45,403 nt of DNA from a virus: IMG/VR virus record IMGVR_UViG_3300021960_000145, positions 1 to 45,403 of that record, one strand, 5' to 3'. The translations under genes and the position numbers were made by a program. Below are positions 6,242 to 18,713 of the stretch, piece by piece (the first letter of the stretch is position 1; every line of letters starts with the position of its first letter). Below the pieces are notes generated by a model, which was given only the letters and a program-made list of their open reading frames with translations, was not told the DNA's origin and made no database searches.

Positions 6242-6415
6242 ATGGACAACTACACAGCAACAGGCATCGCTGAAGGCTTCATCGACGCAGAGAGCAATGA
6301 ACAGGTGATCGAGGCGTGGCAGCACCTGCACGACACCGGTCTGGCCTACCAGCTCCAAGGGTGGTTTGGCCGCCAAGCTCAGGACCTGATCGCGCAGGGC
6401 GTGATCTCAGAATGA
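6242..6415 (+). CDS. Hypothetical early protein 4
   Basis: A 57-residue acidic helical protein from ATG 6242 (AAGGAG upstream). Sequence pattern: MDNYTATGIAEGFIDAE, then IEAWQHLHDTGLAYQLQGWFG and a short tail. The longer frame upstream would read through the hairpin and is rejected. No known function. It is followed by the first hammerhead element. Confidence 0.62.
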   Translation: MDNYTATGIAEGFIDAESNEQVIEAWQHLHDTGLAYQLQGWFGRQAQDLIAQGVISE

Positions 6416-6431
6416 TGACCAACACTTACTA

Positions 6432-6484
6432 GTCGAAACCGCCTTCGGGCGGTCTGGCGGATTGCCACCCGCCACTGATGAGAC
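6432..6484 (+). ncRNA. Type II hammerhead ribozyme 1
   Basis: All core elements are in type II order. Stem II strands are GTC (432-434) and GAC (482-484). GAA (435-437) is followed by stem III ACCGCC-TTCG-GGCGGT (438-453). The cleavage-site nucleotide is C454. Stem I pairs TGGCGG with CCGCCA (455-460 with 469-474), followed by CTGATGA (475-481). Predicted cut is between 6454 and 6455. Position is between a stop codon and the ribosome site of the next gene. Confidence 0.85.
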
Positions 6485-6510
6485 AGGCTAAAGGATAGAG
6501 GAAACTAACA

Positions 6511-6675
6511 ATGCTCACTGACTTAATCACTTTCGCAGACAACTCAGGTAACCACGCATATGAGATCACCACCGATAAAGGTCGTTACGCGGTCCACGCC
6601 AACAACCGCACGCAAGCTGCCGCCCGCCTCAGACGAGAAGGTTTCACCGTCCACGACGTGAACATGATTGGTTAG
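6511..6675 (+). CDS. Hypothetical early protein 5
   Basis: A 54-residue protein from ATG 6511 (GAGG upstream), too short for most gene finders. Its pattern suggests a beta-beta-alpha unit: LITFADNSGNHAYEITTDKG, then RYAVHANNRTQAAARLRREG and a final strand. No family recognised. It lies between hammerheads 1 and 2. Confidence 0.62.
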   Translation: MLTDLITFADNSGNHAYEITTDKGRYAVHANNRTQAAARLRREGFTVHDVNMIG

Positions 6676-6679
6676 GTCA

Positions 6680-6738
6680 GTCGAAACGCAGCGCAAGCTG
6701 CGTCTGGCAAGGATTTGCCGCCTTGTCACTGATGAGAC
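6680..6738 (+). ncRNA. Type II hammerhead ribozyme 2
   Basis: Stem II GTC/GAC (680-682 with 736-738), GAA (683-685), and stem III ACGCAGC-GCAA-GCTGCGT (686-703) with a GNRA loop. Cleavage-site C704. Stem I pairs TGGCAAGG with CCTTGTCA (705-712 with 721-728, one G-U), followed by CTGATGA (729-735). Predicted cut 6704/6705. Stems I and III differ in sequence from copy 1 but keep pairing. Confidence 0.87.
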
Positions 6739-6755
6739 AGGCAAAGGAGAATGAA

Positions 6756-6983
6756 ATGAACCTTGATGAAATCTTTTCTGTCGTCCGGAAGCGCCCTGCG
6801 CCAAAGCGGCGAGCTTACCGCGCCACTTGGCCATGCGGATCAACGTGGGAATTCGACCGCCACGATCTGGAGGTGCCCGACTTCACTGACGGAGACCAGA
6901 ACGGTGTCACTTTCTGCTTTTCATCACTGCGCGAGGCGCGAGAGGTTCTCTCCGGTCGCGGGTGCTTGGTTGAGCTTATTTAG
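6756..6983 (+). CDS. Hypothetical early protein 6
   Basis: A 75-residue protein from ATG 6756 (AAGGAG, 6 nt spacing). The N-terminus is basic (RKRPAPKRRAYRA). The remainder is mixed, with two Cys (WPCGSTWEF and VTFCFSS) and a final LVELI. No family recognised. The stop codon TAG ends at the first base of stem II of hammerhead 3. Confidence 0.62.
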   Translation: MNLDEIFSVVRKRPAPKRRAYRATWPCGSTWEFDRHDLEVPDFTDGDQNGVTFCFSSLREAREVLSGRGCLVELI

Positions 6984-7038
6984 TCGAAACGGGCTCCGGC
7001 CCGTCCGATCCGGACTGACCACCGGACGCTGATGAGAC
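6983..7038 (+). ncRNA. Type II hammerhead ribozyme 3
   Basis: Stem II GTC/GAC (6983-6985 with 7036-7038), GAA (6986-6988), and stem III ACGGGC-TCCG-GCCCGT (6989-7004). Cleavage-site C7005. Stem I is 7006-7013 with 7022-7028, seven pairs around one bulged A7008. CTGATGA occupies 7029-7035. Predicted cut 7005/7006. The loop of stem I is 8 nt, as in copies 1, 2 and 4. Confidence 0.87.
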
Positions 7039-7058
7039 AGGTCAAATGGAGAATACCT

Positions 7059-7445
7059 ATGTCTTTGAATTGGAATGTCGCCGACGTCGCCAACAGCGAG
7101 GCGATCTGCTTCTATGAGTTCGAGCGGGACGGAGAGCAGTGCCGCAGGCTGACGCAATCGACCGAGAACCTGATCTTCCTCACGATGGTTGTCGGCATGG
7201 GCTCGATCACCGAGGACAACTACAAAGAATTCTACAAGCGCGTCGCACTGTACGAGGGGCTGCGCGGCCCCGTACAGCTCAGGCTCAACGATGGCGGCCA
7301 CTACGTCGAAGTGCCCTACACGCTTGAAGACATCCGCCAGCACATTGGACTGCGCACCAACGTCAGCGAGGAAAAGCCAGCAGCGTGGCGCAAGCGCATT
7401 CTCGAAAGCTGGGAACACGATCTACTGGTCGAACGATACCACTAA
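7059..7445 (+). CDS. Hypothetical early protein 7
   Basis: A 128-residue protein from ATG 7059 (GGAG, 7 nt spacing). An acidic N-terminal domain contains SEAICFYEFERDGEQCRRLT, followed by a hydrophobic helix (LIFLTMVVGMGSIT) that is too short and polar-flanked to call a membrane segment. Then come strands (PVQLRLNDGGHYVEVPYTLE) and a C-terminal helix. No family recognised. Hammerhead 4 begins just after its stop. Confidence 0.65.
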   Translation: MSLNWNVADVANSEAICFYEFERDGEQCRRLTQSTENLIFLTMVVGMGSITEDNYKEFYKRVALYEGLRGPVQLRLNDGGHYVEVPYTLEDIRQHIGLRTNVSEEKPAAWRKRILESWEHDLLVERYH

Positions 7446-7500
7446 GCCGAAACGCCCTTCGGGGCGTCTGGCGGGAATTGTCCCCCGTCACTGACGAGGC
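7446..7500 (+). ncRNA. Type II hammerhead ribozyme 4
   Basis: Stem II is GCC/GGC (446-448 with 498-500), a compensatory change from GTC/GAC in the other copies. GAA occupies 449-451. Stem III is ACGCCC-TTCG-GGGCGT (452-467). Cleavage-site C468. Stem I has 7 bp (469-475 with 484-490, one G-U). The core is CTGACGA (491-497); the change to C is at the position known to be variable in hammerhead cores. Predicted cut 7468/7469. Confidence 0.88.
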
Positions 7501-7509
7501 AGACACCTC

Positions 7510-7589: not shown

Positions 7590-8477
7590 ATGAAGCAAGA
7601 CATGTACGAGACCGTCACCAACAAGGTGTTGGAGATGATGGAAACCCACGGCGCGGACTGGATCAACCCGTTCGCTCGCAAGGGCAAGTCACTGCGGCCC
7701 ATGAACGTCGCGTCCAAGAAGGGCTATCGCGGCATCAACGTGCTGCTGCTGGGCTGGATGCCCTACACCTCACCAGTGTGGGGAACTTACAACCAGTGGA
7801 ACCAGCGCGACTGCACCGTTCGCAAGGGCGAGAAGGCAACCGACATCGTGTTCTGGAACTTCGTCGAGAAGGACGATCCCAAGACAGGTGAGAAGGTCAA
7901 GATACCCTTCCTTCGCAACTACAAAGTCTTCAACGCTGAACAGGTTGAGGGTGATGTAGCTGCTGCCCTTACTGCTGATCCTGTAGAGGATAGTGAAGGC
8001 GCTGAGGAGATTGTGTCCGCTGAGGATTTTTTCCGCCGAATTCCTGCGAACGTCCGGCACAGCGATCAGGGCCGCGCCTACTACTCGCCAATGGGTGACT
8101 ACATCCACATGCCGAACAAGGCCGTGTTCGAAGCCACCCCAACCTCAAGCGCGACCGAGTGCTACTACTCGACCCTCGCCCACGAGCTTACCCACTGGAC
8201 TGGTGCCAAGCACCGTCTTGCCCGTCTGACCAGCGACAGCTTCGGCAGCGAGGGGTACGCCCGCGAGGAATTGGTCGCCGAGATCGGCTCTGCCCTGCTC
8301 TGCGCTCACCTTGAGATCAGCGCGTCGCCTCGCCCCGATCACGCCAAGTACCTCAACGGCTGGATGAAGAAGCTGTCCGACAGCAAGCGCGAGTTTGTCT
8401 CGGCAGCGTCTGCCGCAGCCAAGGCTGTCGACTTCATCCTCGACGCAGCCAAGGAGGAAGTTGCGGTCGCGGCCTGA
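7590..8477 (+). CDS. ArdC-like antirestriction/metallopeptidase protein
   Basis: A 295-residue, two-domain protein. The N-terminal ssDNA-binding-like domain (about residues 1-115) has the family pattern WINPF...RPMNVASKKGYRGIN and WGTYNQWNQ...VRKGEKATDIVFW. The C-terminal domain is a zincin with HELTH (H198, E199, H202) and downstream EELVAEIGSALLC supplying a likely third ligand. Plasmid ArdC protects incoming DNA from type I restriction; in phages the same architecture is found in early genes. AAGGAG precedes ATG 7590, and promoter P2 lies just upstream. An acidic linker (about 130-145) joins the domains. Length and both domains appear intact. Confidence 0.85.
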   Translation: MKQDMYETVTNKVLEMMETHGADWINPFARKGKSLRPMNVASKKGYRGINVLLLGWMPYTSPVWGTYNQWNQRDCTVRKGEKATDIVFWNFVEKDDPKTGEKVKIPFLRNYKVFNAEQVEGDVAAALTADPVEDSEGAEEIVSAEDFFRRIPANVRHSDQGRAYYSPMGDYIHMPNKAVFEATPTSSATECYYSTLAHELTHWTGAKHRLARLTSDSFGSEGYAREELVAEIGSALLCAHLEISASPRPDHAKYLNGWMKKLSDSKREFVSAASAAAKAVDFILDAAKEEVAVAA

Positions 8478-18388: not shown

Positions 18389-18713
18389 TGCGCGGCTCTC
18401 CATTTTTTCAGTTCCATATACGCTCCGTTTCTCTACAAGGTTCGCCCAGTTAGACGGCAGGCCACGCGAGAAAGGAGAAACCACGCGAGGGCGAACATGG
18501 CTTTTCGCTCCGTCGAGCTAGCCGTCCATGACCGCACATAAGGCAGCCAAAAAAAAGTTCAACCCCTTACGGGAGCTACATCACGTTTTTCGGATTTACC
18601 TTATGTGTGATGCAGAACTACCACAGGTAAAACAAATGCAGATATTTTTGCATGATAAGCTTGAATAACCAAAATTCATTGCTACGTAAGTCTGGTCAAT
18701 TGGAGAAGACAAT
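18389..18713. promoter_or_regulatory. Divergent control region between replication and recombination operons
   Basis: About 325 bp without a gene. CACATAAGG (18535-18543) and its perfect complement CCTTATGTG (18599-18607) form an inverted pair 64 bp apart. TGTGATGC close to the second arm resembles the element in P1 and P2. A second small inverted repeat, ATGCA-N8-TGCAT, lies near 18635. Promoters in both directions are expected, but no clear -35/-10 pair stands out. Confidence 0.5.

Follow-up and report, generated by a model that had tools for sequence, protein, structure and literature searches.

Four type II hammerhead ribozymes in consecutive gaps of a phage small-gene block, and a tRNA-like element found in corresponding positions of sister phages

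The first natural type II hammerhead ribozymes, and their pseudoknot, were described by Perreault et al. 2011 (PMC3088659), who also reported clustered hammerheads flanking single genes in prophages and tested three tandem arrangements in vitro. A triple array around ardA of A. tumefaciens was found to cleave in vitro and also, when cloned, in E. coli; processing into gene-length mRNAs was proposed for the prophage clusters in the same paper (PMC3088659). The serial array as an operon splitter, which the initial annotation of the DNA considered here had held to be non-standard, was thus already put forward in 2011. In a search that was thin on subscription journals, no paper after 2011 was found to pursue the role of hammerheads in phages; a paper that includes RNA-seq of the phage Alderaan names them only as an aminoglycoside target.

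The locus described here lies in the window, by which we mean the whole of IMG/VR virus record IMGVR_UViG_3300021960_000145 (45,403 bases). Its phage genes include those for an integrase, Sak-like and RecE-like recombination proteins, a primase/helicase and a ribonucleotide reductase. It shares with the clusters of Perreault et al. the presence of several same-strand hammerheads flanking genes in one transcription unit, amongst them type II members whose loop I forms a pseudoknot with the 3' tail, and an adjoining anti-restriction gene. It differs in having four copies in four consecutive gaps, in belonging to an uncultured phage, in lying 5' of ArdC rather than ArdA, and in that cleavage is only predicted. 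Two further features of the window were noted in passing: a near-threshold match to the Rfam int-alpA RNA in the replication/recombination region (18443-18528, minus strand; 32.2 bits against a cutoff of 35.8), and a single open frame of 2996 aa in the structural half of the genome (22220-31210, minus strand). The hammerheads and the genes around them are, in order:

6242-6415, plus strand: open reading frame 5' of hammerhead 1; 57 aa, DUF7417 (PF24192).
6431-6492, plus strand: hammerhead 1; RF02276 at 40.6 bits and descriptor; stem II GUC 6432-6434 with GAC 6482-6484, stem III 6438-6453, predicted cut 6454/6455, stem I 6455-6474, CUGAUGA 6475-6481; pseudoknot of 3 bp, GCC 6464-6466 with GGC 6486-6488.
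6511-6675, plus strand: open reading frame between hammerheads 1 and 2; 54 aa, no family.
6679-6746, plus strand: hammerhead 2; RF02276 at 41.6 bits and descriptor; stem II 6680-6682 with 6736-6738, predicted cut 6704/6705, stem I 6705-6728, CUGAUGA 6729-6735; pseudoknot of 6 bp, UUUGCC 6714-6719 with GGCAAA 6740-6745, continuing into the Shine-Dalgarno sequence.
6756-6983, plus strand: open reading frame between hammerheads 2 and 3; 75 aa, no family.
6982-7046, plus strand: hammerhead 3; RF02276 at 36.5 bits, under the cutoff of 37, and descriptor; stem II 6983-6985 with 7036-7038, G6983 doubling as the final base of the upstream UAG stop; predicted cut 7005/7006, one bulged base in stem I, CUGAUGA 7029-7035; pseudoknot of 5 bp, UGACC 7016-7020 with GGUCA 7040-7044.
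7059-7445, plus strand: open reading frame between hammerheads 3 and 4; 128 aa, no Pfam or PHROG family, conserved in eight IMG/VR relatives.
7445-7508, plus strand: hammerhead 4; RF02276 at 51.8 bits and descriptor; stem II GCC 7446-7448 with GGC 7498-7500, predicted cut 7468/7469, stem I 7469-7490, CUGACGA 7491-7497; pseudoknot of 4 bp, UGUC 7479-7482 with GACA 7502-7505.
7590-8477, plus strand: ArdC-like anti-restriction gene (ArdcN and zincin), 3' of hammerhead 4.

An anti-restriction gene directly 3' of a hammerhead is a recurrent arrangement, with ArdC in the window, an OCR-like gene in Streptomyces phages and ardA in A. tumefaciens (PMC3088659); the loci concerned are window 7590-8477, L140, L177-L181, L183, L184 and L186.

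The Rfam model for type II hammerheads (RF02276, Hammerhead_II; gathering cutoff 37 bits) has exactly four matches in the window, all on the plus strand. This bears out the initial annotation's four type II elements in four consecutive gaps, as do their complete cores, although of the covariance scores that it had called for only three clear the cutoff: copy 3, the weakest, falls 0.5 bit below it and carries the bulged base. All four copies have an intact core (C3 U4 G5 A6 N7 G8 A9, G12 A13 A14, A15.1-U16.1 and H17), and the cut-site base H17 is C in each. The circular order expected of type II (core, stem III, cut-site C, stem I and CUGANGA, with stem II formed by the flanks) is present in every copy. 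Stem III is of 7 bp and stem I of 6-8 bp, both closed by loops in all four, and stem II is open, being made of 3 bp from the flanks (GUC/GAC in three copies, GCC/GGC in one). It had also been claimed that stems I and III differ between copies but always pair, and so they do; there is no mispair adjoining the core in any copy, the bulge of copy 3 lying inside stem I. The cuts predicted with the descriptor lie at the same four positions as those first proposed. The initial annotation does not mention the pseudoknot that loop I forms with the 3' tail, and this changes in step across the copies (GCC/GGC, UUUGCC/GGCAAA, UGACC/GGUCA and UGUC/GACA). Recent duplication of one ribozyme was considered and rejected, the four copies sharing only the core and the tail pattern. 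When copies 2, 3 and 4 are folded alone with pseudoknots ignored, the minimum-energy structures replace parts of the hammerhead fold; such single-copy folding is uninformative because the RNA is pseudoknotted, and the outcome was to be expected. That the four window elements represent type II hammerheads with intact cores is, on their sequences, as good as certain.

The G+C-rich stems I and III could invite the view that these are ordinary hairpins, whether terminators or RNase sites, which resemble hammerheads by chance. Against this stand the four Rfam matches, the finding of no terminator-like site, and no promoter above chance, between the array genes of the window, and the behaviour of larger sets. 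The descriptor, which combines core and stems, gave 2 matches in 1.6 Mb of reversed sequence. Of 136 distinct IMG/VR matches for which only the core letters and stem II had been required, 129 form both stem I and stem III with 5 bp or more, compared with 84 of 2720 shuffles. A pseudoknot of at least 5 bp with the element's own tail can be drawn for 44% of 224 distinct loop/tail pairs, as against 4.7% when tails are permuted (highest share among 500 permutations, 9.8%); the hammerhead sets were partly selected by the descriptor, and the pseudoknot was no criterion for selection. Because the descriptor is nearly silent in reversed sequence, and because stem pairing is far above that of shuffles, chance matches are excluded as the source of the hammerheads; the hairpin explanation is already refuted by the sequence evidence, and we give it next to no credence.

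Each hammerhead occupies its own gap between consecutive plus-strand open reading frames, and it is quite likely that the array of four pseudoknotted ribozymes processes this co-directional block of small genes, of which the ArdC-like gene is the last, and so uncouples neighbouring genes. Identity, order, pairing, position and conservation are read from the sequence; cleavage is reasoned from the behaviour of known hammerheads, and on that analogy the native window transcript is very probably cut at these sites. Each ribozyme would fold during transcription and cut the RNA once, immediately 3' of stem III. This would leave an upstream mRNA that ends with its stop codon, the stem III hairpin and a 2',3'-cyclic phosphate, and a downstream mRNA that begins with a 5'-OH, the stem I hairpin, the pseudoknot tail and the ribosome-binding site; the transcript ends that the initial annotation had envisaged, a stem I hairpin at the downstream 5' end and a stem III hairpin at the upstream 3' end, are correct. 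The polycistronic RNA would be divided into units of 250, 301 and 463 nt with a single gene each, and for the predicted mRNAs the 5' leaders come to 56, 51, 53 and 121 nt, the 3' tails to 22-39 nt. One gene per unit, as had been proposed, is what the window would yield but is not the general rule, as is seen below in annotated phages.

In viroids and retrozymes, hammerheads produce RNA circles, and it might be supposed that here too the two half-hammerheads of a cleaved unit re-form across stem II and ligate, to give small circular RNAs. Each unit does begin with stem I-CUGANGA and end with GAAA-stem III-UC, which is the geometry for ligation. Stem II is just 3 bp, however, and in the last unit its two halves do not match at the middle position, where GAC of copy 3 would face GCC of copy 4. 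Every unit, moreover, holds an entire gene complete with stop codon and ribosome-binding site, and Perreault et al. detected neither circular nor spliced products when they looked for them (PMC3088659). We regard the formation of circles as very improbable. Operon splitting is the best-supported reading of the window array.

The position of the ribozymes relative to the genes was assessed for 243 distinct phage hammerheads from 120 sources, with shifted positions as the control. In 182 of the 243 there is an open reading frame of at least 40 codons whose end lies 0-8 nt ahead of G12 (control 5%), the stop codon often lying within the strand that leads to stem II (UAGUC, UAAGUC). A Shine-Dalgarno sequence, start codon and open reading frame follow 8-45 nt after A9 in 205 of the 243 (control 14%), and hammerheads occur on both strands in none of the 120 sources. 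The phage hammerhead is a cassette of stop codon, ribozyme and ribosome-binding site. A ribozyme wedged between these two sites should have to compete for its fold with terminating or initiating ribosomes. The elements could act as translation-sensitive switches, in which a ribosome ending upstream or starting downstream blocks folding, so that cutting occurs mainly on poorly translated RNA. In most of the 243 cases the stop codon runs into stem II or lies directly beside it, and the Shine-Dalgarno sequence directly adjoins the pseudoknot tail, as such a switch would have it. On the other hand, hammerheads with the loop I-tail pseudoknot are fast (PMC3088659), and cutting may precede the arrival of a ribosome; the tight placement could also merely reflect the compactness of phage gaps. 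A main role as switches appears unlikely to us, with perhaps a minor share of the probability, and separation of the genes is retained as the preferred reading.

The 128-aa gene that lies between hammerheads 3 and 4 has homologues on eight IMG/VR contigs, and these relatives have 1-4 hammerheads nearby, amid partly different small genes. The match to Limnohabitans phage DC33 is confined to the region of the DUF7417 gene, and no hammerhead is present. In two relatives (L145 and L148) genes are neighbours without a ribozyme where other relatives carry one; since ribozyme-free versions of the same junction exist, cutting at a given junction cannot be essential. Similarity to hammerhead 4 led to cultured Streptomyces phages of the subfamily Arquatrovirinae, of which 10 of the 12 examined have 5-11 hammerheads in one leftward operon; Rfam alone finds 10 in Celia and 8 in Tefunt. 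In those ten phages a hammerhead is held by 68 of 89 gaps of at least 55 nt (76%), compared with 4 of 146 shorter gaps. The units between hammerheads contain 1-7 genes in these annotated genomes, with a mean of 2.4. The annotated start of Tefunt gp79 (L005:1552-1782) lies upstream of a hammerhead, such that the gene covers the ribozyme; this start is probably wrong.

The changing company of genes around the ribozymes raises another explanation, namely that the hammerheads serve mainly as short shared sequences for recombinational exchange or loss of small genes, cutting being secondary. Relatives do share some genes and swap others around ribozymes. Furthermore, contig L141 corresponds to a joint of L142, its left side matching the first hammerhead of L142 and its right side the second, the crossover falling within the GAAA-stem III segment that the two have in common, as though the intervening genes had been looped out (L141:6388-6441 compared with L142:1240-1293 and 1947-2004, a recombination joint within a hammerhead whose halves come from two ribozymes of an array). 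Gene adjacency, however, is conserved at 32% of hammerhead junctions and equally at 32% of other wide gaps, many of the hammerhead-free wide gaps in this comparison coming from two phages; for tight junctions the value is 54%. Recombination is not taken as the main function because hammerhead junctions keep their gene neighbours as often as other wide gaps do. It also leaves the catalytic core, the covariation of the pseudoknot and the position relative to stop codon and ribosome-binding site unexplained, and we think it improbable as the principal role, in favour of RNA cutting.

The sister phages Hydra (L185) and Endor1 (L187) possess the corresponding operon without hammerheads, and most of the wide gaps of that operon hold instead an element of 43 nt. 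This minihelix consists of a 5-bp stem, an 11-nt linker (RSNGGCASNCA), a 6-bp stem and a 7-nt loop (TTCGAGN), followed by ACT. A search of IMG/VR with a pattern that fixed only the linker, loop and end letters gave 119 distinct minihelices, and both stems are fully paired in 87 of the 90 that come from sources with at least two matches. Covariation is strong: in 105 of 108 fully paired minihelices linker base 9 and loop base 7 are Watson-Crick complements, and linker bases 2 and 8 pair in all 30 aligned examples, with changes on both sides; in this alignment of 30 sequences the two stems had been pre-selected for pairing and the two extra, elbow-like pairs had not. Judged by these letters and pairings, the minihelix looks like a miniature tRNA elbow, with a GG mini D-loop that faces a T-loop carried on an acceptor-like stem whose first base is G. 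It was rejected as a tRNA proper: a T-arm, a short acceptor-like stem and a GG mini-loop are followed by ACT and not CCA, with no cloverleaf and no anticodon arm, and ARAGORN finds no tRNA in Hydra or Endor1. Compared with Rfam it gave no match at E <0.05, a literature search found no description of it, and it is possibly a new RNA family. From what is generally known of RNase P substrates, our guess is that the minihelix is cut by that enzyme.

The placement of the minihelix resembles that of the hammerheads. It follows the end of an open reading frame within 60 nt in 110 of 115 cases (median 8 nt; control 37%) and precedes a Shine-Dalgarno sequence and start in 97 of 115 (control 25%). Arrays of it in intercistronic gaps were seen in L185, L187, L192, L215, L217 and L247 and in about 50 other IMG/VR loci; a scan of genome contigs produced one Corynebacterium contig only. 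The minihelix was sought in 91 hammerhead-related sources, the window included, and found in none, and the IMG/VR hammerhead loci and the relatives of the window likewise yielded none. Two contigs mix the elements on the same strand in successive gaps: L217:7439-10505 has a hammerhead (below the Rfam cutoff) and then six minihelices, and L247:859-4698 has a minihelix, a hammerhead (by descriptor only) and then five minihelices. In seven hammerhead-bearing phages the descriptor places a hammerhead in the gap 5' of the OCR-like anti-restriction gene, and in the two others, Daudau and Bowden, one is visible by eye, with a single additional base ahead of stem II. A minihelix occupies the corresponding slot in Hydra, before an OCR-like homologue 50% identical to that of Celia.

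We take this replacement of the hammerhead by the minihelix in a corresponding operon and slot to support the view that the function under selection is to separate genes at the level of RNA, and the pattern suggests that this separation is selected in its own right. A broader proposal, for which the odds seem to us slightly short of even, is that phages use at least two unrelated and interchangeable cutting cassettes between stop codon and ribosome-binding site, the hammerheads and a minihelix that is probably cut by host RNase P. If this is true, hammerhead arrays would be one form of a general strategy for individualizing mRNAs. The benefit to the phage, which we infer only, has perhaps an even chance of being the uncoupling of translation and stability; neighbouring genes would be likely to become independent in both translation and mRNA stability once the RNA was cut. 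With the fixed layout of stop codon, ribozyme and ribosome-binding site, and with cultured arrays of up to 11 copies, the idea of operon splitting can be put to a direct test.

Apparently new are the statistics on placement, the arrays in cultured phages and the substitution of a minihelix for the hammerhead. Relative to the clusters of Perreault et al., it is the placement between stop codon and ribosome-binding site and the arrays of up to 11, both from the related phages, that go further. With respect to RF02276, the four window copies match the full model, copy 3 at 0.5 bit under the gathering score. The type I and type III hammerheads of viroids and retrozymes have the same catalytic core and chemistry, but they are open at another stem and release unit-length RNA for circularization, in contrast to the gene-length mRNAs that would be released from the window array.
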